DNA from: a virus
Direction: 5' to 3' (one strand)
IMG/VR virus record: IMGVR_UViG_3300009154_000161
Span: 1-32,644 of that record
Length of the DNA: 32,644 bases
Shown here: one piece after another, positions 1,636 to 32,313 of the stretch
Position numbering within the stretch: position 1 is the stretch's first letter
Layout of the letters: every line of letters begins with the position of its first letter
Program-made: the position numbers and the translations under genes
Notes under the pieces: generated by a model
The model's database searches: none
What the model was told of the DNA's origin: nothing
The model's input: only the letters and a program-made list of their open reading frames with translations

Positions 1636-2097
1636 ATGAAGTTCCGAGAATGGATGGAAAAGAGAATAGACGAATCGACCCGATATAGCGTTGAGGTCAA
1701 CTACAGAACCAAGACGGACGAGGTATTGGAGGGTTTCGCCAAGATAGCCTTGGGGTACGTCAGTGCCGCCTTAAAGAAGCAAGGCTATCACGTTAGACAG
1801 ATATTCGACGAGAAGCCGATGAGGATAATCGTATCGTCTAGGAACTGGGACGATGGCGAGTGGGTAGGTTTGATTAGCTACCGTTTGCAAGACGGCTCAG
1901 GATGCTTTGTAATGAGTAACGGCTTCTACAACAAAGATAGAAAAACCGTCTCCATCCAGAGGTCAGAGAAGTGCAAGAATGACACGCCTTCTGATATGAC
2001 AAAGGATCTTGTTAATATGATGCATGGTCTCAGAAAGCGACCGGATCAACACCGTGAAAAACTTAAGCGCGTGCCGTTGAAGAGGGGCCCTAAGTAG
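1636..2097 (+). CDS. Unknown protein with capsid-targeting-like N-terminus
   Basis: A 153-aa protein not recognised as a family. It begins MKFREWMEKRIDESTRY, which fits the recurring M-K-x-F-x-E-W pattern of this window, followed by I-D-E/S like a T4 prohead-protease site. The middle (residues 45-110) looks like a small alpha/beta domain with VGLISYRLQDGSGCFVMSN. The C-terminal 40 residues are very basic (KRPDQHREKLKRVPLKRGPK). A basic tail would suit a DNA-associated internal head protein, which is inference. Its start lies directly behind a late-type box, and its stop abuts the convergent ligase gene. Confidence 0.7.
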   Translation: MKFREWMEKRIDESTRYSVEVNYRTKTDEVLEGFAKIALGYVSAALKKQGYHVRQIFDEKPMRIIVSSRNWDDGEWVGLISYRLQDGSGCFVMSNGFYNKDRKTVSIQRSEKCKNDTPSDMTKDLVNMMHGLRKRPDQHREKLKRVPLKRGPK

Positions 2098-3051
2098 TTA
2101 GATTCCCCATTCTTTGTACATGTCAAATCTTTTGGACCCCAGTTCGCAGATCTTGTTTTTTATTTTATCAGGAAGAAACTTGAACGCGAATTCTATGATG
2201 GAAGATCCTCTTTTTATGGCTTTTTCTCTATCCATTTGAAACATTTTTCTCAGTACGTTTGCATCATAGGCTTTGCATCTATGGCAGTCTGCCGGATCCC
2301 CGCCCGAATTCCAAAAATCGTCTGAATCGAGCCGCTCTCGGTCTACCGCCCAGAATTCTTCATGTACCCTATCTTCTGTTAGATGAACGACCCTTTGGCA
2401 TATGTCGTAGACGAGAGCGACGAGCCTCGGACTGGAAACCCAGAAATTGCCCAGCGTTCTATATTCGGCTCCGTGTTTTGGCTGGCGATATCTCCCTGCC
2501 CGTCCGTAGATCTTCCTTCTTTCGATGCTGCTAGGTCGTCTGTCAATCAAAAGGCTTGAAGTCCCTAAAAAAAGATCCAACATTCTGACCAGCATTATGC
2601 AGTTCTCGTGGGAATGTCCCAAACCGGTTCCCAAGTGAACGTGACCGCCCGCCGTTCTAAATCCACTTTTTTCAAAAAACTTGTTTACACCCGCAGCCGA
2701 GACGTTTTTCATCCGGTACGCACAGAATTCTGCCTCGCACCCCGCTTTCCTTGCGTCCTCATGCAGAAGTTCTCTTTTTTCAAAATTTGCCGCCGAGATA
2801 TTCGTCAAACGAAGCGGACGCACGACACTTGCGTATGTTTTTAAAACTTTCCCCATGTTCTCTATTGCAGCATCTTTGCTTTCAGCGGGCGCAACGGTGC
2901 ACTCCGCCAAGACATTATCGTAAAAGAATTGGTTATTTCCAATTCGAAGCCTCTTTTTCTTTGTTCCTTCCACGACCCCTATAGCGCTTTTGAACTTGCC
3001 TTTTTGGTCCATTAGGATAAACTCTGGGTCGCTTCCGAATGTGAATTTCAT
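2098..3051 (-). CDS. Phage COOH-NH2 ligase type 2 (phiEco32-like)
   Basis: This 317-aa protein resembles the phage COOH-NH2 ligase type 2 family, glutamine-synthetase-like enzymes predicted to join carboxyl and amino groups. Supporting features are FGSDPEFILMD at residues 4-14, an acid-lined core (NVLAECTVAPA), the histidine motif GGHVHLGTG in the middle, and an EYRTLGNFW motif. Members are predicted to make peptide-like tags or modify proteins; the substrate is not known. The start at 3051 is chosen because ATGGAGGACAAAC lies just upstream; a longer reading would begin at 3090. It stands alone, divergent from the gene at 3120. Confidence 0.8.
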   Translation of the reverse strand: MKFTFGSDPEFILMDQKGKFKSAIGVVEGTKKKRLRIGNNQFFYDNVLAECTVAPAESKDAAIENMGKVLKTYASVVRPLRLTNISAANFEKRELLHEDARKAGCEAEFCAYRMKNVSAAGVNKFFEKSGFRTAGGHVHLGTGLGHSHENCIMLVRMLDLFLGTSSLLIDRRPSSIERRKIYGRAGRYRQPKHGAEYRTLGNFWVSSPRLVALVYDICQRVVHLTEDRVHEEFWAVDRERLDSDDFWNSGGDPADCHRCKAYDANVLRKMFQMDREKAIKRGSSIIEFAFKFLPDKIKNKICELGSKRFDMYKEWGI

Positions 3052-3119
3052 GTTTGTCCTCCATGTGGCATTTTGGTTTACCGAGGCCAAAACGTCAAGC
3101 CTTTGACTACATAATCTGA

Positions 3120-4616
3120 ATGACTATCGCAGCATCACAAATCATCTTTCTTCTTTCTGGTGGCACGAGCAACTCCAATCCGAGTCGATCAATCGGTGGA
3201 CCTCCATCAACATTTCCTGTGCTAGGCACTTTGAACAACTTGTTCTCGGACGTGACCTCGGACGAAGCGACCTCCGGCAAGACTGATTTCCGTTGCTTCT
3301 ACGTAAAAAACAATAGTTCCAACAGTTACCTATACGATGTCGAATGCTTTATAGACTCCCAAGCCTCTACAGGATCAACTGCTGAGGTTGGGGCTGCGAT
3401 AGTGACGGATGTTCAAAATATAGAGGTAAGAGGTCCCGTCACTGGCGGAAACCTAGTTCTTAAATATGAACAGACAGAATTTGCCGCCGAATGGGGTGGT
3501 TCGCCCCAAAACTTTCTGGATAATCTTCTTTTGGCGATGCAAGGAGTCGGCTTAAATGGCGTAGGAATATCAACATCGTTTTCCGGCATTTCGCAGAACT
3601 TCATTGTTGAGTTCAAAGGATTTCAAGACAAAAGAAACCACCAGAAGATGGTTGTGAGCGAAAACAACCTAGTCGGTGCAGTCTCAGTTTCTATCTCCAA
3701 AGTGGCCGAAGGTCAACCAATAAATTCAAACGGACCTTTGTTGGCTGCGGAAACCGTTCCTCCTTCTAAAGTGAATTTTTACACTACCAACCAGAGGATA
3801 TCTCTCGGAAATCTTCGCCCCGGCGATTTTGTTCCTGTGTGGATAAAAAGAACCACAGTAGCAAACACAGACTTTAAAGAAAATGACTATTTTGTCTTCA
3901 AAATATTAGGAAAGCCTTTTGGCTCGGGAGGTCAGACCCCAAGACCGACTTCCACACCGATGGTGACTCCTTGGATATCGGGGCTTCCGGCGCCTACTCT
4001 AACACAGAGCGGGACTGGACCCACGCCAACACCGAGCGGGACTGGACCCACGCCAACACCGAGCGGGACTGGACCCACGCCAACACCGAGCGCCTCTTGT
4101 TTGTTCATTGAATGCGGAGGAGTCGCGTCATATGCCGATTGCGGCTTGATTCAAGAGGCTGGCTATTCATATTCCATGGATTGCAACCTGTGCAGATGCG
4201 TGAAATCCCTTGTTCCAACTCTGACACCCTCCGGAACAGGTTCTACACCAACACCCACACGTACACCAACGCCTAGTGGTACTGGACCCACACCAACACC
4301 GAGCAAGACTGGGCCGACACCAACTCCAACACCTACCGCCTCTTGTCTCTTTATCGAATGCGGAGGAACGTTGGCGTACGCAGACTGCGGGATGCTTAAT
4401 GAGACCGGCTATTCTTATTCTATGGACTGCAATTCGTGTGAGTGCGTTAAATCTCCCGTTCCGACACAGACCGTCTCTTGTGCATTCATCGAATGCGGAG
4501 GAACGTTGGCATCTGCCGACTGCGGTCTAGCCAACGAACCTGGATACACTTACTCCATGGACTGCGATCTTTGTAAATGTATTAAATCTCCCGTTCCGAC
4601 ACCTACCGCCTCGTGA
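3120..4616 (+). CDS. Virion-type protein with three Cys-rich modules on Thr/Pro linkers
   Basis: This 498-aa protein has two parts. Residues 1-280 form a beta-rich region with LNNLFSDVTSDEATSG and DFRCFYVKNNSSNSYLYDVE, which recalls a domain in phage structural proteins. From about 283, Thr/Pro/Gly linkers (TPTPSGTGP) alternate with three copies of a roughly 36-residue module starting near residues 327, 409 and 454. Each module has six cysteines in the order C-x4-C-GG-x6-C-x13-C-x2-C-x-C. The spacing suggests three disulfides, loosely like antistasin-type or EGF-like extracellular modules. An exposed appendage on the particle or a secreted adhesin is the best guess. No signal peptide and no clear ribosome binding site are visible. 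Confidence 0.7.
   Translation: MTIAASQIIFLLSGGTSNSNPSRSIGGPPSTFPVLGTLNNLFSDVTSDEATSGKTDFRCFYVKNNSSNSYLYDVECFIDSQASTGSTAEVGAAIVTDVQNIEVRGPVTGGNLVLKYEQTEFAAEWGGSPQNFLDNLLLAMQGVGLNGVGISTSFSGISQNFIVEFKGFQDKRNHQKMVVSENNLVGAVSVSISKVAEGQPINSNGPLLAAETVPPSKVNFYTTNQRISLGNLRPGDFVPVWIKRTTVANTDFKENDYFVFKILGKPFGSGGQTPRPTSTPMVTPWISGLPAPTLTQSGTGPTPTPSGTGPTPTPSGTGPTPTPSASCLFIECGGVASYADCGLIQEAGYSYSMDCNLCRCVKSLVPTLTPSGTGSTPTPTRTPTPSGTGPTPTPSKTGPTPTPTPTASCLFIECGGTLAYADCGMLNETGYSYSMDCNSCECVKSPVPTQTVSCAFIECGGTLASADCGLANEPGYTYSMDCDLCKCIKSPVPTPTAS
4007..4087 (+). repeat. 27-bp tandem repeat encoding SGTGPTPTP
   Basis: Three near-identical 27-bp units lie end to end inside the Thr/Pro linker before the first Cys module. 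A degenerate stretch of the same type separates modules one and two (about 4225-4340). Nearly identical DNA copies suggest recent slippage or recombination. Confidence 0.9.
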
Positions 4617-4620: not shown

Positions 4621-5211
4621 ATGACATGCCCCATAAATGGCAAGCCTTGCTCTAAATACAAGGGATTCCACATAACCGAAAAGATAGGAGGCAAGACGCA
4701 AGTCTTCGAAGTATGCGAAGATTGCCTTCATGCAAATATGAAAAAGGTAATAGAAATTCCTCAAGAAGCCAATGATTGTGAAATGTGTGGGATGAGTCTG
4801 AGCGATCTTTTAAAATCTACCCAAGTCGGATGTCCTAACTGCTACACGCATTTCGAAAAGACGATTCAACATGTTGTTGCATCCGCCCAAGGGTCTGCGA
4901 ACCTCAGCCATGTCGGCATAGTGCCCGATCAGTACAAAATGCGCACGGCAGAAAACGAGGATCTTGCGTCGTTTTTAGTAGAGTTGGATCACGAAGTCCG
5001 TATGGCGGTATCGGGCGAGAGGTACGAAGAGGTTCCAAAACTTAAAACCAAAATAAAAGAATTTGAGGAAACTCTTGCAAAATACAAAGAGCGTGTTCGC
5101 CTCGACGAGTTCGTAGAGACCGAAAATGAAAGGCGAGCCCCTTCCATTAGAAAAGAACTCGCCAAAATCATTTTTGACTACCGCGAAAGCAAACTACCCA
5201 AGAGCCTCTAG
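4621..5211 (+). CDS. McsA-like zinc-finger/UVR-motif protein
   Basis: A 196-aa protein resembling McsA, the activator of the McsB protein-arginine kinase in hosts that use the Clp system. It has paired cysteines at about residues 3/10, 32/35 (CEDC), 53/56 (CEMCG) and 71/74 (CPNC), consistent with two zinc sites. Residues 118-153 hold a UVR-type coiled-coil motif (LDHEVRMAVSGERYEEVPKL). No McsB homologue is in this window. It could retarget a host kinase or protease system to help the phage, which is inference. It starts four bases after the previous stop and overlaps the convergent subtilisin gene by 18 bases. Confidence 0.7.
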   Translation: MTCPINGKPCSKYKGFHITEKIGGKTQVFEVCEDCLHANMKKVIEIPQEANDCEMCGMSLSDLLKSTQVGCPNCYTHFEKTIQHVVASAQGSANLSHVGIVPDQYKMRTAENEDLASFLVELDHEVRMAVSGERYEEVPKLKTKIKEFEETLAKYKERVRLDEFVETENERRAPSIRKELAKIIFDYRESKLPKSL

Positions 5212-6126
5212 AATTCTTTTCGGCTCCAATATGCCAAAGCCTTGGTAGAACTTGTTGTTCTTGAAAGTATCCGATGTGACTGGAATAGTGTGCTCCTTAA
5301 AGGCCACCCTATAGTCTTCGGCGTTATTCAAATTCAATTTCACATTCATGCTTCTTGAGTAAGACAACACTAATGCCGCTACGCCGGTTGCAAAAGGAGC
5401 GGCCATGCTCGTTCCACTGAGCACCGCATACCAGTTATCCGGAACCGTTGAAAATATCTTGCCTCCCGGACACATGAAGTCCAAATTGTCGCCCGTATTG
5501 CTGAAACTTGATCTGTTAAAGTTTTCGTCGATGGATCCTATCGCTATGGTCTCGGGATAATTCGCAGGATAGAAAATACTTTCGGTAAGACCCGAGTTTC
5601 CTGCCGCCACGAAGCACACAACGTTCTTTGTTGCTGCATATTGTATCGCCTCTCTCACTTCTTGTGTGTGGTTTGGCGATCCGAGCGACATGCAAACCAA
5701 GTCTGCTCCATTATCCGCAGCCCATCTTATGCCAGTGGCGACGCTGCTGATGCTTCCGTTGCCGCTACGATCAAGAACCTTTACGGGCATTACTTTAGCG
5801 TCTGGGGCAACTCCTACCATGCCGATTTCATTATTCTCGGCTACAATTATGCCCGCAACATGGGTTCCGTGCTGGTTGTCATCCCAAGGCATTTCTGATG
5901 GATCCAAGACGTTAAAGCCGGGCAATAAGTTCTTCTTTAGATCCGGATGGTCTAGATCCGCTCCGGTGTCTATCACGGCTATCTTCACCCCTTCTCCTCT
6001 AGACTTTGTCCACGCTTCAGGAAGGTCAAAGGCCGTTACGCTCCAACCCGCTTTTTGCTTGGCATCTTGTATGGAGAATACCTCTTCCCTCTCGAAAGGG
6101 AAAAGACTTAAAGTGTCTTTATTCAT
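5194..6126 (-). CDS. Intracellular-type subtilisin serine protease
   Basis: A 310-aa S8-family protease. The catalytic triad is visible: Asp53 (AVIDTGADLDHPDL), His86 (NQHGTHVAGI) and Ser240 (LSGTSMAAP), with the oxyanion Asn177 (AAGNSG). There is no signal peptide. The short leader has LFPF at residues 8-11, recalling the LIPY propeptide of intracellular subtilisins, so it probably acts in the cytoplasm on host or phage proteins. Its start overlaps the stop of the upstream 6123-6557 gene as ATGA, so the two are probably cotranslated. Length and residue order are normal for a minimal, active enzyme. Confidence 0.93.
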   Translation of the reverse strand: MNKDTLSLFPFEREEVFSIQDAKQKAGWSVTAFDLPEAWTKSRGEGVKIAVIDTGADLDHPDLKKNLLPGFNVLDPSEMPWDDNQHGTHVAGIIVAENNEIGMVGVAPDAKVMPVKVLDRSGNGSISSVATGIRWAADNGADLVCMSLGSPNHTQEVREAIQYAATKNVVCFVAAGNSGLTESIFYPANYPETIAIGSIDENFNRSSFSNTGDNLDFMCPGGKIFSTVPDNWYAVLSGTSMAAPFATGVAALVLSYSRSMNVKLNLNNAEDYRVAFKEHTIPVTSDTFKNNKFYQGFGILEPKRILEALG

Positions 6127-6557
6127 GAATACCTCCTTACGCTCAAAAATTCTACTTCAAGAGAAGGCTTCCACGATCCGCTCTGATACTTAACAACCAT
6201 CCAGTCTATTGCGCTAGAAACAAGCACGTAGACTATGTAATTCTTTATTGGAGCGGCGAAAGGCCTCATCCATATGGGCATCGCTTCCTTGACTGTGTAC
6301 TCATAAAGCCTATCGACCGCGTTAAGAACGGTGGCCTTCTTGTCCGGACCAGAAATTATGACTGTGCTGACCGTGACAACAAAGTCGTCCAAAACCATCA
6401 GAAGAAAGTTTGTGACCTTGTGAAGATTGGGCTTCTTGAAAATAAAGCCTTTTTTATCCTTGTTTTGATCCCATATTTTCTGATATTTGAGAATCTTATT
6501 CTCTATCTCGTCTATTCTTTGGACGACTCCAACGGGATTATCTTTTTCTTTGAACAT
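6123..6557 (-). CDS. Unknown protein coupled to subtilisin
   Basis: A 144-aa protein with no recognised family. Residues 1-45 are charged and helical; two hydrophobic stretches follow, near residues 47-70 (FLLMVLDDFVVTVSTVII) and 105-122 (NYIVYVLVSSAIDWMVV). These could be amphipathic helices or weak membrane segments. AAGGAGGTTGA immediately before the ATG is a strong ribosome binding site, with a late-type box upstream. The four-base overlap with the protease gene suggests a partner, substrate or localiser of the protease, which is inference. Confidence 0.7.
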   Translation of the reverse strand: MFKEKDNPVGVVQRIDEIENKILKYQKIWDQNKDKKGFIFKKPNLHKVTNFLLMVLDDFVVTVSTVIISGPDKKATVLNAVDRLYEYTVKEAMPIWMRPFAAPIKNYIVYVLVSSAIDWMVVKYQSGSWKPSLEVEFLSVRRYS

Positions 6558-6559
6558 TC

Positions 6560-6592
6560 AACCTCCTTGTTAATGTCCTACACTTATATATT
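6560..6592 (-). promoter_or_regulatory. Late-type promoter and strong RBS for the protease operon
   Basis: On the minus strand TATATAAG (6583-6590) is followed about 25 bases later by AAGGAGGTTGA and ATG 6557. This is a conventional leader, unlike the start-adjacent boxes elsewhere. Confidence 0.55.
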
Positions 6593-6630
6593 GATTTACA
6601 AGGGGTCTTTTAGAGGTAATATTTCCAAGA

Positions 6631-6813
6631 TCAGTTTTTTACTTCTTCTGACCTTCCGTGGTTCATGACTTCAATTTCATGCTCATCCCCAACAAGTTGA
6701 GACCAGTCCCAAGTATGTGGAGTGTGATCTTGATCGTCGTCGTATTTTACTTTGATAATAAGTACTTGTTCTTTGATCATTGTAATAGTAAACTTATTTT
6801 CTTTTAAGTTCAT
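6631..6813 (-). CDS. Small acidic unknown protein
   Basis: A 60-aa reading that overlaps the end of the upstream acidic-protein gene by 20 bases. A second ATG at 6780 would give a 49-aa form starting MIKEQVLIIKVKYDDD. The product has a short hydrophobic beta-like stretch, then an Asp/His-rich part (DDDQDHTPHTWDWSQLVGDEHEIEV). No family is recognised and neither start has a clear ribosome binding site. Translational coupling to the upstream gene would explain this. Confidence 0.5.
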   Translation of the reverse strand: MNLKENKFTITMIKEQVLIIKVKYDDDQDHTPHTWDWSQLVGDEHEIEVMNHGRSEEVKN

Positions 6814-7882
6814 CCAAATAGTATCTGATGGTGTCGTTCATTTGGCCCGCTCTAGTTTCTGGAGATACGAGGACATAACTAAAAGTTTTTGCTATAATTT
6901 CTAGAGCCTCTTTCACCCATTCTTTATCAACAGAACCATTTGTCTCTTTTGCTTCATGGTCGCCCTCGTCATGCAATCCGTGATTGCGGTCCATGTCGTA
7001 ATGACCTCCGTCATTAGGCCAAGATTCACTTATTACTTTTTTTTTGGGAGACTCAGCACCTTCTCTGATTGCTTGCTGAACTTCTCCGACTTGGCTCCAT
7101 ACACCGTCCCAGTTTTTCTGGTCTGGGTTTTCTCCGAGCATGCTGTTGACGCTGCTCCACCAATCCGCATCTTCCTTCTTCATGTATTTGCCACAGTACT
7201 TTCCGCACTTCTTTTCATCTTTGTCTTTGCCTTTGTTCTTCTCGGCAATCTTTTTCTTCAAGAAATCGGGAAGATCTTTCTGCTTGTCTGTGAGGCCTTC
7301 ATCTTCCTCTTTGCCTCCTTCCTTTTTCTTGGACTTCATGTTCTTGCAGAAGTTGCATTTGCAGCCTTCTTTGTGGCCCTTGAGTCCCTTCTTCAAGCCC
7401 TCTTTGAGAATCTCCATTCCTTTTTTGATCTCATAGATGGATTCCTCGTCATCAATTCCCTCTAGCACAGTCTCCAAGTCAGCCAAAACTTCTGACCACT
7501 CCTTCTTTGCTTTCTTCTTCATAAATTTTGGCTTCTCTTCTTCCTCCTCCTCTTCATCTTCATCATCATCTTCATCTTCATCCTCATCCTCGTCCTCATC
7601 CTCGTCCTCATCCTCATCTTTGTCTTCGTCTTCGCAATCTTCATCCGAAGGCTTCTTGGTCTCTTCCTCTTCTGCTTCCTCCTCATCTTCGCCGTCCATC
7701 TTCTTCTTCATCTTCTTGGCCTCTTCAATGGCCTCCTCGGCTTCTGCTTCAAGGGCAGCCTCGGTTCCGTTAATAGACGAGGCGCTGACAATGCCTCCCA
7801 CAGTGTTAGGATTCTTAAGGCCGAGGTTGAACGCTCCGTAGAGCGACTCGTTTAGCAACTTGTATTCTTTGTAGGAAAGCAT
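6794..7882 (-). CDS. Acidic-tract, Cys-containing candidate internal head protein
   Basis: A 362-aa protein beginning MLSYKEYKLLNESLYG, which fits the window's N-terminal targeting pattern with L-N-E/S as a candidate cleavage site. Residues about 55-120 are an almost continuous Glu/Asp tract with Lys patches. After it come Lys-rich stretches with GCKCNFC (near residue 175) and KKCGKYCGKY (near 225), which could bind metal. The C-terminus is ordinary globular sequence. Strongly acidic, Lys-rich composition recalls prohead core (scaffold) proteins of T4-like phages; that role is inference. GGAG precedes the ATG. Confidence 0.75.
   Translation of the reverse strand: MLSYKEYKLLNESLYGAFNLGLKNPNTVGGIVSASSINGTEAALEAEAEEAIEEAKKMKKKMDGEDEEEAEEEETKKPSDEDCEDEDKDEDEDEDEDEDEDEDEDDDEDEEEEEEEKPKFMKKKAKKEWSEVLADLETVLEGIDDEESIYEIKKGMEILKEGLKKGLKGHKEGCKCNFCKNMKSKKKEGGKEEDEGLTDKQKDLPDFLKKKIAEKNKGKDKDEKKCGKYCGKYMKKEDADWWSSVNSMLGENPDQKNWDGVWSQVGEVQQAIREGAESPKKKVISESWPNDGGHYDMDRNHGLHDEGDHEAKETNGSVDKEWVKEALEIIAKTFSYVLVSPETRAGQMNDTIRYYLDELKRK
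7533..7690 (-). repeat. Low-complexity GAA/GAT/GAG codon tract
   Basis: A degenerate trinucleotide run encodes the Glu/Asp stretch of the acidic protein. Read on the plus strand it gives a spurious poly-Ser frame. Confidence 0.85.
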
Positions 7883-7908
7883 GGCGACTCCATTAAAAGT
7901 TAGACGTT

Positions 7909-7930
7909 CGTATATATGATGCCGGGAGGC
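7909..7930. promoter_or_regulatory. Shared late-type box between divergent genes
   Basis: TATATATG (7911-7918) lies between the minus acidic-protein gene and the plus lipoprotein gene and is near-palindromic. GGGAGG (7924-7929) is the ribosome binding site for ATG 7939. Confidence 0.45.
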
Positions 7931-7938
7931 AATTTTTT

Positions 7939-8667
7939 ATGAATGTCCGTCCTAAATTCATGACCGCAATCGTCATGGCTTTTTTGTTGTCTTGCTCCCC
8001 AAGAAAAATAGAAGACAATAAATTAACTCCATCCGCTGATTCCATAAGCCAAATCAACGCAAAGAATTCATCTATAAAGAGCGTAATTTATGGCGAAATA
8101 ACCGGCTTTTCGCTTTCCCGCTCCAAACTCTCATACGAAAAACCCGACGAGTTTATTGCCGAAACATACTTGCTAGGCAAGAAAAGGTCAGAGGTGGCAA
8201 GCGACGGCAAAAATTATTGGTTCTGGATTGAAAGTTTCGACAAAGACTCACTTTATTTTTGCCTAAGAGATAAAATAGGGATAACTAGAGTCAAGCCGCC
8301 CTTGCATCCGTTCGTTGTCCAAGGACTAGCGTGGGTGGATGAGATAAAGCCCGAATCATACCGAGTCACGGAACAAGGTCTCGTGGCGGCTCTTCAAGAG
8401 TCGGGCGTTTATTCAAGAGAGGTCGTCACAGACGGAGAGAAGATACTTGAGCAGCATTTCTTCAAAGAGGGTTTGCCGGTGCTCAGTGCAAAAGCACACG
8501 AGTTCCATGAAATAGAAGGATTTTTTTTGCCCAAAAGAATGACTTTAATTTGGTACGAGGAGGGATTTTCTGCCGAAATGAGTACCGATATGGTATCTAT
8601 AAATAAAAAAATCCCCAAGGTGGATATGCCTCGGGGATTAAAGATGATGAACCTTGAGTGCAATTAG
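7939..8667 (+). CDS. LolA-like outer-membrane-type lipoprotein
   Basis: A 242-aa protein with a type II signal peptide: basic MNVRPK, a hydrophobic stretch and lipobox LLSC with Cys near residue 19. The mature part resembles LolA/DUF4292-type lipoprotein-binding folds: beta strands such as FIAETYLLGKKRSEVASDG, then YWFWIESFDKDSLYF. This style is common in planctomycete lipoproteins, so it may be a host-derived gene. It probably sits in the host cell envelope, perhaps altering the surface during infection, which is inference. The start has a good GGGAGG site. It overlaps the convergent gene at 8664 by four bases. Confidence 0.7.
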   Translation: MNVRPKFMTAIVMAFLLSCSPRKIEDNKLTPSADSISQINAKNSSIKSVIYGEITGFSLSRSKLSYEKPDEFIAETYLLGKKRSEVASDGKNYWFWIESFDKDSLYFCLRDKIGITRVKPPLHPFVVQGLAWVDEIKPESYRVTEQGLVAALQESGVYSREVVTDGEKILEQHFFKEGLPVLSAKAHEFHEIEGFFLPKRMTLIWYEEGFSAEMSTDMVSINKKIPKVDMPRGLKMMNLECN

Positions 8668-8951: not shown

Positions 8952-8966
8952 GCTGACCTCCGTTAA

Positions 8967-9218: not shown

Positions 9219-9245
9219 GTTTTCCTCTCTGTAAACTGGGACTCG

Positions 9246-24726: not shown

Positions 24727-24743
24727 CACGGCATCATAGCCGA

Positions 24744-24751
24744 CTATTTAA
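24744..24751 (-). promoter_or_regulatory. Late-type box for YhaM-like gene
   Basis: TTAAATAG on the minus strand lies 17 bases before ATG 24726. Confidence 0.4.
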
Positions 24752-24775
24752 AAAATGCAATACTAAATTTTTACT

Positions 24776-25206: not shown

Positions 25207-25217
25207 GATAAATAGGG
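25207..25217 (+). promoter_or_regulatory. T4-late consensus-like box next to GNAT start
   Basis: GATAAATAGGG is one base from the T4 late box TATAAATA; its AT core ends four bases before ATG 25219. Confidence 0.6.
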
Positions 25218-25680: not shown

Positions 25681-27279
25681 ATGCCCAGAGAAACCAACAT
25701 TGAAATTAGAAAAGGTTCGAAGGTGGCTTGGGAAAGCACAAATCCAGTCCTCGAGGCAGGAGAACCGGGCTTCGAGACAGACACTAAGAAACTGAAACTT
25801 GGAAATGGAACCACCGCATGGAACAACCTTCCTTACTTCCGCGCGGATGGCGGAGAACTTGTCGACGGCGACGGCAACAATGCAAACATCGCCTTTGATC
25901 CGAATTATGTTGGAGAATTCATAGAGTTAAGCAACAATAGTTGTACCTCTTCATTTACATCTGACGCTAGTGAAAATGAAACATCAGTTTTAACAAACTA
26001 CGCAATAAAAAATAGTGAAAAAGTAGTTTTTAGTATGGTTACGAATTTTGGTGGAGCCATCTCATACACAGGAGTAGGTATAGCTAATCGCCAGCACGAT
26101 GTGAATTATCAAAACAACGGAGGTTACTTAGGTGCAAATAATAATTCTATTGGTATTTACGACAACGGAAGCATTTATTTTAACGACAAAGAAGTTGTTA
26201 ACTTAGATTTAAATTTTCAACTAGATGGAAGCGTTGTAGACGTTGCTGTTGATAGAGTAAACAATCTAATGTGGTTTAGAGCGAATGGAGGGTATTGGAA
26301 TGGAGACAACACACAAAACCCAGAAACAGCAACTGGTGGAGTGGACATTTCATCTATAACTGGCGATGTTTATCCGGGTGCTTGTCCATATGCTTATCAA
26401 GGCGTTTTCGGTCAAATATCTATCAACAGTTCAATATCGTCGCCACCAGCAGGGTTCAAAGTTTTGGTGAGTTCGCAACAAGCTCCATTAACAAGGTATT
26501 ATTATTTTATAGACCATTCACAACCACCATATGACTGGGACCATCAGTCACCACTAAATGGTGAGTGGAATGATCTCAACAATTGGTGGCTAAACGGAGT
26601 GTCTACAGTAGCGGCTACTAGACTTCCAAATTCAAACGACAATGTTAAAATATTTTCACAAGTTCAAACTAATAGAGGATCAACACCTACAGTACAAAAT
26701 ATGTTTATCTCGACACTGCCGAGTGTCGGTGAACTTGGAATTGGCATAGAAATAAATGTTTCAGGAATAGCTAGGTTCTATGGGTCCACCTACATACAGA
26801 ATGTCAGCCAGACTGTCACTGGCTTCCCCACAATCGCAAAAATAAATGGAAATTGTGTTTTCTATGGAACAGATAGCGGACCTTATGCCACTATAAGCGT
26901 AGCAGACGCTGTTGTGAATGGAAATGCTACTTTTTATGGCGAGTCAAAAAATAATGGGACTGTAGCAGGAAACGCTATATTTAGCGAGAGTTCAAAAAAT
27001 GATTACAACAGCACTGCTGGTTTTCTTGGGGTAGTGAGTGGGGAAGCTACCTTTGAGTATGGTGCTACTAATTACGGAGTTGTAAACAACAATGCAACTT
27101 TTAATGATAGTTCAATAAACTACAAGACCGTGAATGGAAATGCCACTTTTAATAGTGCATCACAAAATAGCGAATCTGGAGTTGTAAATGGCAATGCTAT
27201 TTTTAATCAATGCTCAAGAAATTTCGGAACAGTAACAGAAAATGTTACATTAAATAATGACGATGACGATGACTGCTGA
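25681..27279 (+). CDS. Tail-fibre-like protein with repeat domain
   Basis: A 532-aa protein. Residues 3-56 match the N-terminal domain widespread in phage tail and tropism proteins (NPVLEAGEPGFETDTKKLKL, then GNGTTAWNNLPYF). Residues 70-290 hold a beta-sandwich-like part. From about 400 there are repeats with the core V-x-G-N-A-T/I-F-x(5)-S-x-N, seven or more copies, which look like a beta-helix or pentapeptide-like rod. The end is DDDDDC. From about residue 75 onwards base composition is AT-richer than the neighbours. It is probably a receptor-binding fibre or spike. AGGAATATCAA precedes the ATG. Confidence 0.8.
   Translation: MPRETNIEIRKGSKVAWESTNPVLEAGEPGFETDTKKLKLGNGTTAWNNLPYFRADGGELVDGDGNNANIAFDPNYVGEFIELSNNSCTSSFTSDASENETSVLTNYAIKNSEKVVFSMVTNFGGAISYTGVGIANRQHDVNYQNNGGYLGANNNSIGIYDNGSIYFNDKEVVNLDLNFQLDGSVVDVAVDRVNNLMWFRANGGYWNGDNTQNPETATGGVDISSITGDVYPGACPYAYQGVFGQISINSSISSPPAGFKVLVSSQQAPLTRYYYFIDHSQPPYDWDHQSPLNGEWNDLNNWWLNGVSTVAATRLPNSNDNVKIFSQVQTNRGSTPTVQNMFISTLPSVGELGIGIEINVSGIARFYGSTYIQNVSQTVTGFPTIAKINGNCVFYGTDSGPYATISVADAVVNGNATFYGESKNNGTVAGNAIFSESSKNDYNSTAGFLGVVSGEATFEYGATNYGVVNNNATFNDSSINYKTVNGNATFNSASQNSESGVVNGNAIFNQCSRNFGTVTENVTLNNDDDDDC
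26905..27265 (+). repeat. Coding repeat of VxGNATF-type units
   Basis: Degenerate repeats of 51-66 bp, each encoding V-x-G-N-A-T/I-F, then a Ser/Asn/Gly linker, form the C-terminal rod of the tail-fibre-like protein. Confidence 0.8.
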
Positions 27280-27300: not shown

Positions 27301-27681
27301 TTAAAACAAATTCGAAGGCGGATTTTCAAGCCTAGATATTATATTCTGCACCATCTTGGTGCTCTCAATCGGCACAAAATCGTCGGAATAATCATCCAAC
27401 TTGACAGATATCATTTCCGGCAGTATCGGCGATTCTGTCACAAAATAGAAAGGACTGTTCCTCGGATCGTCTTGGGCGTCATGAGGCCAAGGAAATCTGA
27501 CTATGATCGTGCCGTAACGCCTCGCCTCATCCTCAGAGTTTGAGAAATAAAGGAGCAACTTGCCCCTATGCTTCCAATTGGGAACCAACCCCATTTTCTT
27601 GCACAGTAAATAATCACTAATGCCCCTGTATCCAAATTGACTCGCTTGCTCACCTATCAAGAATTCACGGAAATTATTCAT
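27301..27681 (-). CDS. Candidate capsid-targeted ART-like protein
   Basis: A 126-aa protein starting MNNFREFLIGEQASQFG, with I-G-E/Q as a candidate cleavage site. After it comes GYRGISDYLL, KMGLVPNW and LLLYFSNSEDEARRYGTIIV (residues about 17-63). The order Arg-Gly-(S/T), GL-x-P, then (V/L)YFS-x-S-x2-A-x2-YG is seen in small ADP-ribosyltransferase-like folds. An E-x-E signature is not clear, so this is a weak fold guess. If correct, it would be a packaged ART, the same idea as T4 Alt. TATATAAA lies three bases before the ATG. Confidence 0.6.
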   Translation of the reverse strand: MNNFREFLIGEQASQFGYRGISDYLLCKKMGLVPNWKHRGKLLLYFSNSEDEARRYGTIIVRFPWPHDAQDDPRNSPFYFVTESPILPEMISVKLDDYSDDFVPIESTKMVQNIISRLENPPSNLF

Positions 27682-27684: not shown

Positions 27685-27692
27685 TTTATATA
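27685..27692 (-). promoter_or_regulatory. Late-type box next to start codon
   Basis: TATATAAA-TTC-ATG on the minus strand; the box ends three bases before ATG 27681. CGTTCG just upstream is also seen at the 7909 box. Confidence 0.6.
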
Positions 27693-28679: not shown

Positions 28680-29147
28680 TTAACGCGGCAGCATACGAAG
28701 CGTCTTTTCGTAATCTCGGTCATTATCCCAATCTTCACGCCACGCATTAAATAAGGCGTCGTATGTAAGTTGAACCCTTATTGAATGTATCGCGGCAATA
28801 TCTGAAGGGTTGAATTCTTTGTTGTTTATTTGAAAACCACTGATGCGCCCCCCGCCTCCGCTCGATCCCTCGTCGGGGTCTCCATCGTTCTCATATCTAT
28901 CCGCATCCACCATTCCTTGTACCCTTTGGGTTCTATCAGGAGAGACATAAATATCCATATCAACAAACTTTCCATAAAGAACATTGAATTCTTCTTGGTC
29001 CCAAGGAAGCCCGGCCTTATCTAAGGCTTGTTTTATCGTCTCGAAGGCCAATTTTTCTTGATCATCGTACGACGATCTAACCAAAGGCCCTTTCGCGTCC
29101 TCCCCCAATCCCTCCATAATAATCAACATCTCGTAGAAACTCTTCAT
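28680..29147 (-). CDS. Candidate capsid-targeted protein
   Basis: A 155-aa protein starting MKSFYEMLIIMEGLGEDAKG, with I-M-E/G as a strong candidate prohead-protease site. Start 29147 follows CCAAGGAGATGATA, a good ribosome binding site; a TTG start at 29168 is unlikely. Residues 30-80 look alpha/beta; a Gly/Ser/Asp hinge lies near 90-103; the end is helical and acidic/aromatic (YDALFNAWREDWDNDRDYEK). No family is recognised. Confidence 0.75.
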   Translation of the reverse strand: MKSFYEMLIIMEGLGEDAKGPLVRSSYDDQEKLAFETIKQALDKAGLPWDQEEFNVLYGKFVDMDIYVSPDRTQRVQGMVDADRYENDGDPDEGSSGGGGRISGFQINNKEFNPSDIAAIHSIRVQLTYDALFNAWREDWDNDRDYEKTLRMLPR

Positions 29148-29183
29148 TATCATCTCCTTGGTGCTCAAATAATTTCTTCATGC

Positions 29184-29191
29184 CTATCTAG
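29184..29191 (-). promoter_or_regulatory. CTAGATAG box upstream of 29147 gene
   Basis: GGCTAGATAGGCATGAAG on the minus strand places the box 37 bases before ATG 29147; a short reading starts at its own ATG 29181 in another frame (34 aa), and the AAGGAG lies within it. Confidence 0.45.
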
Positions 29192-29227
29192 CCATTTCCA
29201 AGGCGTTTTCTTGAAGGCAAAACGCGC

Positions 29228-29614
29228 TTAACTCTCCGCCTTCAACTTCGCCAAATTATACGCAATTCCTACAAGATTGTCCCAATTCTTCTCGATGTAC
29301 TCAGGAGGACCGCCAATCTGGGCAACAACGTCGGCTGCCTTTTCCGTCGGAACCATTTCAATAGCATCCCAAGGACAAACCTTCAGATCATAAGGATTGG
29401 TTTTCTTTCCGGGAATATGAACACAGACCTCGCAACCAACACATCTGTCCAAATCAATCTGGCACCAACTCTGAAGATTATGGAACTTGTCGTGCTGCTG
29501 AATCTTGATAATACAATCAACAGGACAAACCTCCAAACAAGCCTCGCACCCAGTGCAATTATCTGCATTTATAATGGCCAACTCTTTTGGAAGTTTCTTT
29601 CTGGGGCTCTTCAT
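29228..29614 (-). CDS. Dicluster 2[4Fe-4S] ferredoxin
   Basis: A 128-aa ferredoxin. The first Cys set is CTGCEACLEVCP (residues about 19-30); the second is CVGCEVC (about 58-64) with its last Cys after a 15-residue insert (VCPWDAI, about 80-86). The extra insert is unusual: clostridial-type ferredoxins have three residues there. The remaining 40 residues are a helical tail. It probably shuttles electrons to a host or phage redox enzyme in the cytoplasm. The sequence recalls planctomycete-type dicluster ferredoxins. CTAGATAGGGC directly precedes the ATG, so its mRNA is probably leaderless. Confidence 0.88.
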   Translation of the reverse strand: MKSPRKKLPKELAIINADNCTGCEACLEVCPVDCIIKIQQHDKFHNLQSWCQIDLDRCVGCEVCVHIPGKKTNPYDLKVCPWDAIEMVPTEKAADVVAQIGGPPEYIEKNWDNLVGIAYNLAKLKAES

Positions 29615-29617
29615 GCC

Positions 29618-29625
29618 CTATCTAG
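29618..29625 (-). promoter_or_regulatory. CTAGATAG box next to ferredoxin start
   Basis: CTAGATAGGGCATGAAG on the minus strand. The box overlaps the last base of the three-base GGC spacer to ATG 29614. Confidence 0.5.
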
Positions 29626-29707
29626 CCACTTTCAAGACTCATTTTTCGCTCGAATCCATACGGAAGAATTTTTAACAAAACCAATCCAAATGTCTCTTAC
29701 GCAAATA

Positions 29708-29719
29708 ATAGATATATGT
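29708..29719 (+). promoter_or_regulatory. Late-type box for tail-collar gene
   Basis: AGATATATGTG lies about 32 bases before ATG 29750; AAGGAGGAAAAAT follows it. Confidence 0.4.
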
Positions 29720-29749
29720 GAAGGCATCCTAATATCAAGGAGGAAAAAT

Positions 29750-30355
29750 ATGTCCGCTACAACAACGGAAGGAACAGGACCAGGCTCAGCAGAAGAAAGC
29801 AGAAGAAAAATACAAAACGCCCTAGTTAGAGAGGAGAATTTGCTGCCGGAATTGCTCCTTCCGGTCGGCGCTGTACTTGCCTATGGCTCAAGTAACGCCC
29901 CGAACGGTTGGTTGAATTGCCAAGGCCAAGCTGTCTATAGGGGTGATTATCCCGATTTGTTCGCCGTAATCGGAACAACATACGGAGTGGGAGACGGAAG
30001 CACGACTTTTAACCTCCCCAACCTGTCGGGCAGAGTGGTCGTCGGTCAAGGAAACGGAGCCGGATTGACATCGAGGGCTATGGGAGCCACGGGGGGCGTA
30101 GAAACCCATGCATTAAACGTCGGTGAGATGCCAAGCCACACCCATACTTCCAACGCAGTGGGAAACACTGTGGGTCTAATCAAAGCAGACGGATTAAACA
30201 CCGCAGTTGGCGTGGACAACTCGGCAGTAGAACCCAACTTATATGCTGCACCTGTTGCAGTGAGCATAGATAGTGCCGGTAGCGGCAACGCGCACAACAA
30301 CATGCAGCCTTTCGCCGTCCTGAACTACATTATCAGATACGGTAAGAGAACCTAA
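29750..30355 (+). CDS. Phage tail-collar domain protein
   Basis: A 201-aa protein. Residues about 40-100 carry the tail-collar fold typical of short tail fibres and of microcystin-dependent-type proteins: PVGAVLAYGSSNAPNGWLNC, then DLFAVIGTTYGVGDGSTTF and NLPNLSGRVVVG. It ends with the usual MQPFAVLNYIIRYGKRT. Start 29750 is set by AAGGAGGAAAAAT; a longer upstream reading has no ribosome binding site. It is probably a particle tail component. A terminator follows. Confidence 0.9.
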   Translation: MSATTTEGTGPGSAEESRRKIQNALVREENLLPELLLPVGAVLAYGSSNAPNGWLNCQGQAVYRGDYPDLFAVIGTTYGVGDGSTTFNLPNLSGRVVVGQGNGAGLTSRAMGATGGVETHALNVGEMPSHTHTSNAVGNTVGLIKADGLNTAVGVDNSAVEPNLYAAPVAVSIDSAGSGNAHNNMQPFAVLNYIIRYGKRT

Positions 30356-30372
30356 TATCAGATAACTTTGAG

Positions 30373-30406
30373 AACGGCCTCCGGGGAGACTCGGGGGCCG
30401 TTTTTA
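30373..30406 (+). terminator. Rho-independent terminator
   Basis: ACGGCCTCCG pairs with CGGGGGCCGT (one G-T pair), and a T run follows, just after the tail-collar gene. Confidence 0.85.
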
Positions 30407-30418
30407 TTGGTGGATGGG

Positions 30419-31081
30419 CTAGTTACTTTCAAGGCGTTCTGCCGCCAGCTCAGCAATAAAAAGTTCTCGAAAATCCTTGTCGTGAGCCAACATCTTGGCC
30501 AACATATCTTTCCCCTTAAACACAGCCACCTCGCACGACAATTTAATGTATTCTTCGGGCAGACTGTCGCCGTGTCCTTGGTTGGCTTCCCTACAAGCCA
30601 GAACGCAGTTTTTAAGCGAGTTATCCCCGCCCCTAGACTTAGGAATTAAATGGTCAAGGTTATAAGACCTCCTGCTGTTGAGGTTTATCTTACGCCCAGT
30701 CCAGTAGCACCTAGGATTATCCCCTATTTTCTTTATTAAGTCCTTGAGTTTGAACATGAATTTATATCCCATCCTTTTGGCCTTCGTCCCTATCATACCG
30801 AAATGATTAATTTTGGAGCGTAGTATTTGTTTCTTTAATCCAAAAATCTCGACAAAAGGATCTTTGTATTCTTTGATCCTACCGTGCTTGAAGGCCTCCA
30901 TCTTCGTACGCAAAGGACAAAGTCTCTTCTTCCTAGTGCGCGCCAAAGTCTTGCCCTTTTGGCCCGCCCCGCAGTGGTAAGAAATCGTCCCCTTGGAACA
31001 ACCCAGACGAACCTCTATCTGTCTGTAGGACAAGCCTTCGTCCCTCAATTTTAAAATTTTTTCTCCTAGTCCGAGTTCCAT
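30419..31081 (-). CDS. HNH endonuclease with N-terminal HTH
   Basis: A 220-aa protein. Residues about 14-35 read as a helix-turn-helix (LSYRQIEVRLGCSKGTISYH) that may guide DNA binding. The HNH nuclease motif lies near residues 155-185: YNLDHLIPKSRGGDNSLKN (the catalytic Asp-His) then CREANQGHGDSLP. A Lys/Arg-rich linker joins them. It is probably a free-standing homing endonuclease, as is common in T4-like phages. No intron signals are seen around it. No ribosome binding site is visible at ATG 31081. Confidence 0.85.
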   Translation of the reverse strand: MELGLGEKILKLRDEGLSYRQIEVRLGCSKGTISYHCGAGQKGKTLARTRKKRLCPLRTKMEAFKHGRIKEYKDPFVEIFGLKKQILRSKINHFGMIGTKAKRMGYKFMFKLKDLIKKIGDNPRCYWTGRKINLNSRRSYNLDHLIPKSRGGDNSLKNCVLACREANQGHGDSLPEEYIKLSCEVAVFKGKDMLAKMLAHDKDFRELFIAELAAERLESN

Positions 31082-31156
31082 CCAACAGATTTTAATAGAA
31101 ATCTATAGGATGGACAATATCAATTTTTAATTGATACCACGAGAGCGGAATCAAAA

Positions 31157-31669
31157 TCAGACCGCTACCTTGGTGCGACTAGAAGACACGGCTTGCATTA
31201 TCTGATTGGCCTTGTTGGTTAATATCCCATTCGCCAGCTTTTGAGCATACCCAGACCCCACGGAGCCATCCTTGATGGCTTGAAAAAGATTGCTCGCTAT
31301 CTGGCCCTTCTCTTGCTCGGTAAGATAAGTCAAGCACGCATCCGATATTTCCACATAAGTATCAACCGTTCTCTGAATCAGAGAGGGATCGCGAGTTTGA
31401 GCCTTCTGGGAAGCCCTCTGGCTGGCCAACTGCATCGCTTGCTTGACGGCCCGGTTTTCCCTCCAAGCCTTCTTGAGATCGCTTACGGCCCCCACCGCAG
31501 CCTTCGCAACCCCTCCAAGCCCTGGAACAAGGCTCATGCCACCCGTAACGGCCGCAACCCCAGCATCAGTCGCCATATCTCCCGCCGCCGCTTTAGCACG
31601 ACCTGCCAAACTGGAGCCTACGCCTCCACCTATCGCCTTGGCTTCCAAAAATTCATAAAATGTTTTCAT
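31157..31669 (-). CDS. Candidate capsid-targeted Ala/Gly-rich protein
   Basis: A 170-aa protein starting MKTFYEFLEAKAIGGGVG, nearly the T4 internal-protein start (MKTYQEFIAEA); F-L-E/A would be the cleavage site. Residues 10-70 are Ala/Gly-rich and lightly hydrophobic. The rest is helical with AVKQAMQLASQRASQ and a Gln/Thr mix. No family is recognised. CTAGATAGAGC directly precedes ATG 31669. Confidence 0.78.
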   Translation of the reverse strand: MKTFYEFLEAKAIGGGVGSSLAGRAKAAAGDMATDAGVAAVTGGMSLVPGLGGVAKAAVGAVSDLKKAWRENRAVKQAMQLASQRASQKAQTRDPSLIQRTVDTYVEISDACLTYLTEQEKGQIASNLFQAIKDGSVGSGYAQKLANGILTNKANQIMQAVSSSRTKVAV

Positions 31670-31672
31670 GCT

Positions 31673-31680
31673 CTATCTAG
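31673..31680 (-). promoter_or_regulatory. CTAGATAG box next to start codon
   Basis: CTAGATAGAGCATGAAAAC on the minus strand, box three bases before ATG 31669. Confidence 0.45.
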
Positions 31681-31705
31681 TCATTTTCATTGAGTATTTA
31701 GCCGC

Positions 31706-32029
31706 TCATGCTCGTACATCAGAGCCAGGCCCCATCCACGTAGGCCTCTTGTAACTGGGATCCCGCGACATCTGAAAGGACAACTCTTGCTCCATCGCAT
31801 CTATCCCTTTCTGAGTGGGGACAAAACCGCCCGAAGCTCCGCGCTCCAAGAAACCCGCCCCCAAACACTTACGAAGATGACTCAAATGGGTCGGCTCTAC
31901 ACGATCAGATATCATACCAAGACCCTTCTCCAAAGAGTCAAACATAACCCAGATGTTAAGACTGGTGGGAGTCCCCTTCGGAGCACGAGCCTCGGCCAAT
32001 ATTTCTAGCATATCGTAGAATGTTTTCAT
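31706..32029 (-). CDS. Candidate capsid-targeted winged-helix protein
   Basis: A 107-aa protein starting MKTFYDMLEILAEARAPKGT, with L-A-E/A matching the T4 prohead-protease consensus closely. Residues about 25-85 look like a winged helix: SLNIWVMFDSLEKGLG, HLSHLRKCLGAGFLER, then a wing (GGFVPTQKGIDAMEQEL). A DNA-binding regulator delivered with the genome is one possibility, which is inference. Its start overlaps the upstream stop as ATGA; TAGGAAAACAGC precedes it. Confidence 0.72.
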   Translation of the reverse strand: MKTFYDMLEILAEARAPKGTPTSLNIWVMFDSLEKGLGMISDRVEPTHLSHLRKCLGAGFLERGASGGFVPTQKGIDAMEQELSFQMSRDPSYKRPTWMGPGSDVRA

Positions 32030-32313
32030 GCTGTTTTCCTAGTTCTGATAGCCATGGCCCTGTCAGTCACATTAAAATCTTTAATGGAAACATTGCCACG
32101 GAGAATTTGTTTTATCCTCGCCGCGAAAAGTTCTGGTGAGCAGCCGTACCAAGGCCTCTCCGGGTCGCCGATCATATTCATCACATAGAGAGCGTCAAGT
32201 ATCTCCGGCACATTCGCCTCCGGATCCATGCCCGCCCCTACGAGTTTCTTGCCAGCAAACTCGGCGTCCTCAAACTGCTGTCTGTTTTTGAGCCATTCTT
32301 TAAATATCTTCAT
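32026..32313 (-). CDS. Small candidate capsid-targeted protein
   Basis: A 95-aa protein starting MKIFKEWLKNRQQFEDAEF. The M-K-x-F-K-E-W-L start fits the window's pattern; the cleavage site is less clear. The middle (VPEILDALYVMNMIGDPERP, then FAARIKQILRGN) is helical; the tail is basic (RTRKTA). GAGGATTGAA before ATG 32313 is the ribosome binding site. It lies one base after the upstream gene's stop, so an operon with 32315-32620 and 31706-32029 is likely. Confidence 0.7.
   Translation of the reverse strand: MKIFKEWLKNRQQFEDAEFAGKKLVGAGMDPEANVPEILDALYVMNMIGDPERPWYGCSPELFAARIKQILRGNVSIKDFNVTDRAMAIRTRKTA

Follow-up and report, generated by a model that had tools for sequence, protein, structure and literature searches.

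We show here that a 32,644-base stretch of DNA from an uncultivated T4-related phage (the window, which is the whole of IMG/VR virus record IMGVR_UViG_3300009154_000161 and carries 52 called genes) encodes about 16 proteins in which unrelated bodies follow a short N-terminal tag like the capsid-targeting sequence (CTS) of the internal head proteins of phage T4. The best explanation, already proposed in an earlier annotation of this DNA (the sequence-only reading), is that the tagged proteins are cargo of the T4 CTS type, and we consider it probable. The packaging role is still one that we infer, on firmer ground than at first reading, because the residues that matter for targeting in T4 are conserved, a cleavage-like site is enriched downstream of the tag, gp21 and gp23 are present in relatives, and a late-type promoter box is enriched upstream. 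The phage would then probably pack and inject an unusually large set of different proteins at infection. We infer a succession of docking, cutting, packaging and injection, preceded by leaderless transcription. Through its N-terminal ~8-10 residues, M-x(1-3)-F-x-E-[W/F/M]-L, each of the unrelated bodies would dock in the prohead's scaffold core, and a gp21-type protease would cut after hydrophobic-x-Glu a few residues past the tag. The mature body would stay among the packaged DNA and be ejected into the next host, where it could act before any phage gene expression, in host takeover or counter-defence. A T4-late-type TATA box near the ATG, giving a leaderless mRNA, would cause the cargo to be made together with the head.

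All ten N-termini quoted in the sequence-only reading are encoded as described; MKSFFNWLKEE is an internal start of its longest open reading frame (ORF), but corresponds to the starts called for G003_161 and G004_045, which belong to the same family. The estimate of about fifteen genes with a shared start holds as well (13 hits of a position matrix, two variants and one eroded copy make about 16), and so does the claim that their bodies are unrelated, the 13 hits forming 13 separate blastp families (E 1e-4, a level that leaves room for remote homology). Genes and starts come from our own home-made gene caller, run under two start rules, one of which rewards TATA boxes; a second gene set made without that reward was used for the promoter statistics. 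The matrix has six columns (F-x-E-[W/F/M]-L, with the aromatic anchor at residue 3-5) and a threshold that passes 0.4% of internal methionines (15/3628); it was trained on the same nine contigs that it scores, and the threshold was taken from their internal methionines. It finds 89 hits among the 783 starts of the nine contigs, where 3.2 are expected, and 13 among the 52 window genes, about a quarter. A loose regular expression matches 16 of the 52 window starts and 3 of 205 internal methionines, and with the start rule that ignores TATA boxes 11 of the 52 are still matrix hits (binomial p 3e-16). Among the 89 hits, which the matrix selects for this pattern, the anchor is Phe in 82, Glu stands at +2 in 59, Trp, Phe or Met at +3 in 87, and Leu, Met, Ile or Val at +4 in 76; Trp is the commonest second aromatic.

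The profile scan of relatives that had been proposed bears this out, since the excess recurs outside the training set. LR756511, an unannotated 595-kb metagenomic genome excluded from training, has 47 tagged genes among 1064, where its own internal methionines predict 2.1. Another 12 contig pieces give 18 of 303 starts and 1 of 1199 internal methionines; three of these pieces carry tagged genes identical or nearly so to those of training contigs. TATA-blind starts give 9/30 in G001, 5/25 in G002, 18/174 in G003, 16/179 in G004, 6/78 in G007, 6/85 in G009, 7/99 in G012, 4/59 in G019 and 43/1062 in LR756511. Synonymous codons within the tag are mixed about as expected or as elsewhere, with an identical-codon frequency of 0.43 against an expected 0.44 in the window and its group of contigs (the window group) and of 0.50 against 0.47 in LR756511; selection therefore acts on the protein, not on the DNA. 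The same matrix gives 3/253 in T4, 2/259 in RB49, 2/376 in KVP40, 4/315 in P-SSM2, 1/215 in S-PM2, 2/195 in HTVC008M, 0/227 in pf16, 2/169 in CP30A, 0/356 in phiKZ and 2/189 in SPO1; all of these phages except phiKZ and SPO1 have an S77 protease. When the motif is broadened to admit Tyr, KVP40 (16/376 starts, p 6e-6) and HTVC008M (8/195, p 7e-4) show an excess, so that expansion of the tag is not absolutely confined to the clade of the window. The excess is weak in T4 (8/253, p 0.04) and P-SSM2 (11/315, p 0.08), and none is significant in S-PM2, pf16, RB49, CP30A, phiKZ or SPO1. In KVP40 (NC_005083, 66579-68353) two adjacent genes start with the Tyr-containing variant MKFSEYQ.

The tag resembles that of T4. 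In T4, residues 4 and 7 matter most for targeting, and residues 8 and 10 for processing (PMC9026906, section 2.6); the T4-critical positions 4, 7 and 8 are the hydrophobic positions conserved in the clade tag. IPI-III share with the clade proteins the M-K-T-[F/Y]-x-E-F tag, its spacing, a hydrophobic-x-Glu site after it (in the clade, in many but not all of the proteins) and unrelated mature bodies, as well as gp21 and gp23 in the same lineage, and PMC3012670, in the part drawn on here, describes the T-even internal proteins as a diverse set with only the CTS in common. The T4 start quoted in the sequence-only reading is accurate, both ipII and ipIII translated from AF158101 beginning MKTYQEFIAEA. 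The two differ in scale: T4 has 3 matrix hits in 253 genes (positions 112001-118999 left out), the clade 16-21 per ~150-kb contig and 43-47 in the 595-kb genome. Two of the T4 hits are ipI and gp61.1, and the third, lysozyme, is presumably a chance match; ipII and ipIII, with a Tyr anchor, fall below the threshold (4.6); a looser regular expression gives six T4 hits that include ipII and ipIII and not ipI. T4 gene 61.1 (L080 18966-19130), annotated as hypothetical, starts MKTFKEFIKE, and a protein of the RB49 record (11412-11588) starts MIGFKQFVEE and matches gp61.1 downstream by eye. By its start, gp61.1 may be an unrecognised internal protein.

A cleavage-like site follows the tag more often than chance would place it there. 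In the window and G001-G004, [L/I]-x-E lies downstream of the tag in 37 of 65 tagged proteins and in 61 of 377 untagged ones (Fisher 2e-11), with backgrounds of 0.11 at internal positions and 0.24 in shuffled sequence; the corresponding counts are 18/47 against 161/1014 in LR756511 and 9/22 against 52/295 in G007-G019. The claim that most of the window proteins have (L/I)-x-E plus a small residue within about 15 positions stands in part: [L/I]-x-E is present in 9 of 16, and is followed by Ala, Gly or Ser in only 6 of 16 (by eye). The 7 of 16 without it include three with Phe or Val at P3 (FLE|A, FSE|S and VSE|P) and the eroded copy (WLE|S), the vertical bar here and below marking the predicted cut. 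In a zinc-finger-like family of which six sequences were aligned, Glu-Ser at the predicted cut is invariant and most of the preceding residues vary. The clade gp23 aligns with [I/V/F/Y]-N-E near what we take to be the T4 cut position, which suggests that the clade protease may be looser at P3 than that of T4.

The gp21-type protease, a search for which the sequence-only reading proposed as a check, was not found in the 32.6-kb record; Peptidase_S77 (PF03420, the T4-type prohead protease) is above the Pfam cut-off in 10 of 20 related records. PF07068 (gp23-type capsid) is found in the same ten, among them the 143.6-kb contig G003. The G003 protease lies ~10 kb beyond the stretch that matches the right edge of the window, and in the small contig G001 the protease is ~7.5 kb from DNA 95.5% identical to window positions 31139-32031. 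A ~300-aa (amino acid) gene stands between protease and gp23 in 8 of 8 contigs examined, and 7 of the 8 have a gp20-type portal match. All nine gp21 copies aligned with T4 keep the GEL[D/N]HP and SSRG motifs, which we take to hold the catalytic His and Ser. A second, divergent S77-type match (34.8 bits) lies far from the head genes of LR756511, at 242621-242989 (L085).

Many tagged genes have no Shine-Dalgarno sequence and show instead TA[A/T/G]ATA ending 4-5 nt before the ATG. Seven such boxes precede tagged genes or the eroded copy in the window, in most cases with no Shine-Dalgarno sequence. Within 2-9 nt of the ATG, the box precedes 24 of 59 tagged and 25 of 398 untagged genes of the window group, and 26 of 43 against 52 of 1019 in LR756511. 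The enrichment is not explained by operon position, because it persists when only genes lacking a same-strand neighbour in the 30 nt upstream are counted (boxes at 4-9 nt, 15/34 against 22/253; in LR756511, 14/19 against 34/450). Over all genes the 4-5 nt spacing is a sharp peak, with 38 boxes in 457 genes of the window group and 50 in 1062 of LR756511. Boxes at this spacing number 0 in T4 (0/250 genes), RB49, KVP40, S-PM2, pf16 and phiKZ, 1 each in SPO1 and CP30A, 4 in P-SSM2 and 12 in HTVC008M; for the last, a pelagiphage (KC465899), the figure is uncorrected for base composition. Shine-Dalgarno-like matches of at least 4 bases occur in 11 of 49 genes with a box at 2-9 nt and in 268 of 408 without. 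The box resembles the T4 late promoter TATAAATA in sequence and in its presence before virion-like genes (by eye), and differs in that it ends 4-5 nt before the ATG, as it does before none of the T4 genes examined. The T4 late box occupies -13 to -6, as given in the part of PMC1524935 used here, and a box ending 4-5 nt from the ATG therefore puts the start codon at about +1; the tagged genes of the clade would thus give leaderless late mRNAs. A sigma-70 region-2 protein is encoded in G004 and LR756511 (T4 gp55 itself scores only 14.5 bits); none was found in G003.

In places, promoter, ATG and tag recur as one unit. Tagged genes of the window group with unrelated bodies share a mean DNA identity of 0.47 across codons 1-8, compared with 0.25-0.31 in other parts. 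The unrelated genes G001_018 and G001_021 are 90% identical from -16 to +24, against 20% downstream and 28% upstream, and other near-relative pairs reach 80-85% across the unit. A scan for the unit picked out 8 stretches, spread over 7 contigs and followed by 12 different ORFs; 11 of these ORFs are long enough for comparison, and only one pair among them is related. Upstream of several units is a TnsA-like domain gene (26.0 bits, cut-off 26.5) with a C-terminal endonuclease VII-like zinc ribbon, of which often only the last ~11 codons remain; the gene or this remnant lies directly upstream of promoter and tag at L060 18706-19818 (-) and L062 16371-17675 (+) and in L221, L222, L224 and L226. 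TnsA-like 3'-end sequence precedes 9 of 13 tagged genes in G001 and G002 (two being the reference copies), and similarity of this kind is found upstream of 10 of 67 tagged genes (again including two reference copies) and 2 of 394 untagged ones. Extra unit loci were selected by a pattern that includes box and tag, and only long upstream matches are informative; at G001_019 and WIN_049 just ~16 nt of upstream match precede the stop codon. These arrangements hint that homing or recombination at the junction of endonuclease-like gene and unit may spread and swap cargo. We rejected the idea that the tag arose generally by copying of DNA, the identical-codon frequency being about as expected and copying being seen only in a subset of near relatives; since the tagged pairs taken together show no raised codon identity, unit copying can explain a part at most. 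More tentatively, and with slightly less than even confidence, we propose that the T4-type tag serves as a general export code in clade phages of up to ~600 kb, with a unit of ~45-75 bp placed before dozens of unrelated genes per genome. Such a unit would comprise a late promoter ending 4-5 nt before the ATG, a leaderless start, the capsid tag and the protease site, and would turn each gene behind it into a late-made, packaged and injected effector.

The bodies are diverse, 136 tagged proteins falling into 102 blastp families, 70 of them single. Only 1 of the 16 window candidates has a Pfam match above the cut-off (GNAT). The window holds 12 proteins that lack a matrix hit and in which an enzyme, chaperone or ferredoxin domain is recognisable, and none of them starts with the tag, which bears on the condition, named in the sequence-only reading as refuting, that the tag occurs on cytoplasmic enzymes. 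Enzymes do occur among the tagged proteins of relatives (RNA ligase, CCA-type polymerase, helicase and kinase). Such bodies fit injected cargo, by analogy with T4 Alt, although one could equally take them as speaking against packaging. Pfam matches above the cut-off were found for 12 of 26 tagged relatives scanned in sets of 10, 10 and 6, which were picked mostly by length and not at random. They comprise FMN reductase, GP88, poly(A)/CCA polymerase, AAA_33 kinase, SNF2/ResIII helicase and DnaJ in G003 and G004 (6/10), AAA_33, phosphoribosyltransferase, C39 peptidase and poly(A)/CCA polymerase in G019 and LR756511 (4/10), and RNA ligase PF09414 (41.8 bits, cut-off 27) and a PGDYG-family protein in other contigs (2/6). 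LR756511 also encodes a HAD RNA-repair phosphatase whose start resembles the tag without being scored as a hit by the matrix. Tagged or tag-like loci of RNA-repair type (L226 1395-2135, -; L045 15585-17081, -; L115 680-2206 and 2920-3582, +; L049 16590-17291, +; L077 624-1115, -) encode an RNA ligase, two poly(A)/CCA polymerases, the HAD phosphatase and two AAA_33 kinases. The combination of ligase, kinase, phosphatase and CCA-type enzyme, drawn from different genomes, suggests that RNA repair may be delivered with the genome. Tagged bodies of LR756511 are more basic (p 7e-6), and the T4 internal proteins are described as basic (PMC9026906, section 2.3). A guess of an ADP-ribosyltransferase-like protein at L221:100-606 was discarded, as the Tpt1/KptA match was non-significant (E 0.18) and searches of PDB and of the contigs gave nothing useful.

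Several results weigh against packaging of the tagged proteins. The window record has no S77 match of its own, nor have 10 of the 20 related records, including ones of 126.6 kb and 114.2 kb; in a 20.9-kb part of the S77-less 114.2-kb record, 4 of 29 genes are tagged. At E 0.01, phmmer finds nothing in the contigs that matches T4 gp22 (the type of scaffold core that would receive the tag), gp67, gp68, Alt, the internal proteins, gp55, gp33 or gp45. The [L/I]xE site is missing from 28 of the 65 tagged proteins, and in the window group the charge difference falls short of significance (p 0.10). Between orthologs, conservation of the tag does not significantly exceed that of the body (0.70 against 0.58 in 15 tagged pairs, 0.62 against 0.66 in 82 untagged pairs; p 0.17), and N-terminal conservation was therefore dropped as evidence. 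Most S77-bearing controls (RB49, KVP40, S-PM2, HTVC008M, pf16 and CP30A) are near background with the same matrix; the protease alone thus does not bring the tag, and the abundances of the two are not generally coupled.

Two other explanations have to be considered, and we find both improbable, to the same degree. The tag could mark virion proteins in general, namely tail, baseplate or decoration parts that dock on a common assembly platform, and not head-loaded ones. The same box does precede untagged genes of LR756511, several of which read like tail-fibre or baseplate genes (by eye, not by database match), so that the box alone marks virion genes and not cargo. However, the tail-collar (29750-30355) and tail-fibre-type (25681-27279) genes of the window start without the tag, which matches the head-internal T4 ipI-III in residues and spacing, is followed by the gp21-type cleavage-like site and has enzymes among its bodies. 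Alternatively, the motif could serve docking or stability in the cytoplasm, or could result from the needs of start codon and leaderless initiation, as the leaderless-type arrangement of many tagged genes, the ordinary-looking enzymes among the tagged bodies of relatives (CCA-type polymerase, helicase and kinase) and the several S77-bearing phages with no tag above background would allow. Against this, many tagged genes have a Shine-Dalgarno sequence in place of the box, the mixed codons point to a protein signal, and the tag reproduces the residues needed for head targeting in T4, followed by a protease-like site. That we are dealing with chance, mis-called starts or one divergent shared N-terminal domain is scarcely credible and already contradicted by the controls: the gene calls are home-made and some matrix hits surely false (T4 lysozyme, for example), but the excess over internal methionines is ~20-fold or greater and repeated in untrained contigs, and a tag of only 6-8 residues precedes unrelated bodies in proteins of 53 to 1076 aa.

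A cargo system of this kind is known from T4; what is new is its scale, the tie to a leaderless-placed promoter and the repeated promoter-ATG-tag unit. A further difference from T4 lies in the cargo seen in relatives, for example RNA ligase, CCA-type polymerase, helicase and kinase. Ejection proteins of the SPN3US/phiKZ type are similar in that many proteins are head-internal and some have propeptides cut by the prohead protease, and differ in that the SPN3US propeptides are mostly much longer than the 10-20 residues of T4 (PMC5694885, in the passages drawn on here); phiKZ has no PF03420 match in addition to its 0/356 matrix hits (SPN3US itself was outside the scan). In P1, an N-terminal signal packs the large counter-defence protein DarB, and 30 residues suffice for a reporter; the passages of PMC9024508 consulted report no BLAST consensus among Dar N-termini, whereas dozens of clade proteins share one tag. 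A literature search, with subscription journals mostly outside it, turned up neither a description of a comparable tag set in large phages nor one of T4-type late promoters that are leaderless.

In uncultivated large phages most proteins are orphans, and nothing about them hints at the time or place of their action. If the tag is a packaging code, a six-residue start pattern would separate injected first-response proteins from the rest, for dozens of orphan families per genome, and so provide a ready list of candidate counter-defence and takeover proteins, as well as natural targeting peptides for loading cargo into T4-type capsids. An RNA-repair kit (RNA ligase, CCA/poly(A)-type polymerases, AAA_33 kinases and HAD phosphatase) would likewise be delivered ahead of gene expression, and the position of the promoter suggests a simple way in which an arsenal of this kind could be expressed and perhaps exchanged.

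Megablast of window bases 5000-25000 against 50,697 phage records gave no match. The window shares 40 reciprocal best hits with G003, collinear but inverted along one end of that contig except for the last three, which are reversed relative to the other shared genes. LR756511 is the closest record in the phage collection by gp23 (77.6% identity over the full length) and the sole one above 60% among 2508 matching records; it presumably belongs to the 2020 huge-phage survey, although a term search did not find the accession in the main text of the survey paper (PMC7162821). Judged by its gp21- and gp23-bearing relatives and by the closeness of their gp23 to that of LR756511, the window is a member of a T4-superfamily lineage that includes very large phages. 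Comparison of positions 28687-32626 with L060 shows that the right end matches G001 as blocks in altered order; this, together with the three reversed genes, indicates that the putative cargo region there is being rearranged between relatives. Both ends of the window look like assembly breaks at repeats. The left end (1-92) is a perfect 21-bp tandem repeat of 4.4 copies, and the right end (32626-32644) appears to lie within the repeated promoter-tag unit, inside TnsA-like/unit repeat sequence, as expected where a repeat breaks assembly.

From left to right, and with matrix scores in brackets, the first tagged gene of the window (1636-2097, +; 16.5) encodes a 153-aa protein, MKFREWMEKRIDE|ST followed by an orphan body, with a homolog in G003; a TATATA late-type box (1625-1630, +) stands 5 nt before its ATG. 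The acidic 362-aa protein of 6794-7882 (-) begins with the Tyr variant MLSYKEYKLLNE|SL (site LNE|S), which is found by the loose regular expression, is no matrix hit and recurs as the start of G003_164 and G004_048; an 18/6-bp repeat array lies within its gene (7539-7633). The 83-aa protein MKSFFNWLKE|EN (8967-9218, -), from the internal start of a 109-aa ORF, is followed by the 661-aa protein MFCFKEWLQ (9317-11302, +; 18.2), which has no Pfam or PHROG match and tagged counterparts in G003_160 and G004_044. This protein, the 208-aa MKSIREWRIEK (15906-16532, -; 10.8) and the 95-aa MKIFKEWLK (32026-32313, -; 16.8) have no convincing cleavage site. The eroded copy MEGLWLE|SS (13161-13673, -), assigned by alignment and family membership, has a TATATA box 4 nt before its ATG (13678-13683, -) and a CxC...CxH body that we take to be SWIM-like, a label given by eye and not by database match; 5 of 7 other family members have the full CTS. 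Then come MIPFSKWIETVSE|PQ (99 aa; 15597-15896, -; 8.4) and MITFKEFSE|SN (94 aa; 16529-16813, -; 12.0), the latter with a TAAATA box 5 nt before its ATG (16819-16824, -). MEFREFLE|EC (240 aa; 21722-22444, -; 14.5) has a TAGATA box at 4 nt (22449-22454, -) and is followed by MKSFYDMMKLME|AD (121 aa; 24776-25141, -; 12.1). The GNAT acetyltransferase MDFKSWLLSE|SE (PF00583, 27.0 bits, cut-off 20.7; 25219-25608, +; 13.4) has a TAAATA box at 4 nt (25209-25214, +).

MNNFREFLIGE|QA (126 aa; 27301-27681, -; 15.2), with a TATATA box at 5 nt (27687-27692, -), has no relatives that we could find; an ADP-ribosyltransferase guess for it is not claimed, with no PDB or Pfam match and a pLDDT of 36 for the single-sequence AlphaFold model. 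Further right lie MKSFYEMLIIME|GL (155 aa; 28680-29147, -; 16.0) and the Gly/Ala-rich MKTFYEFLE|AK (170 aa; 31157-31669, -; 17.2), which has relatives 98% and 92% identical and a TAGATA box at 4 nt (31674-31679, -) resembling the promoter-ATG-CTS unit shared by near relatives. MKTFYDMLEILAE|AR (107 aa; 31706-32029, -; 13.2) follows. A last TAGATA box (32626-32631, -) stands 5 nt before an untagged gene (32315-32620), with the end of the record 13 nt beyond. Apart from the tagged genes, arrays of 27-bp and 135-bp repeats occupy positions 4001-4612 of the window, in a 498-aa ORF.

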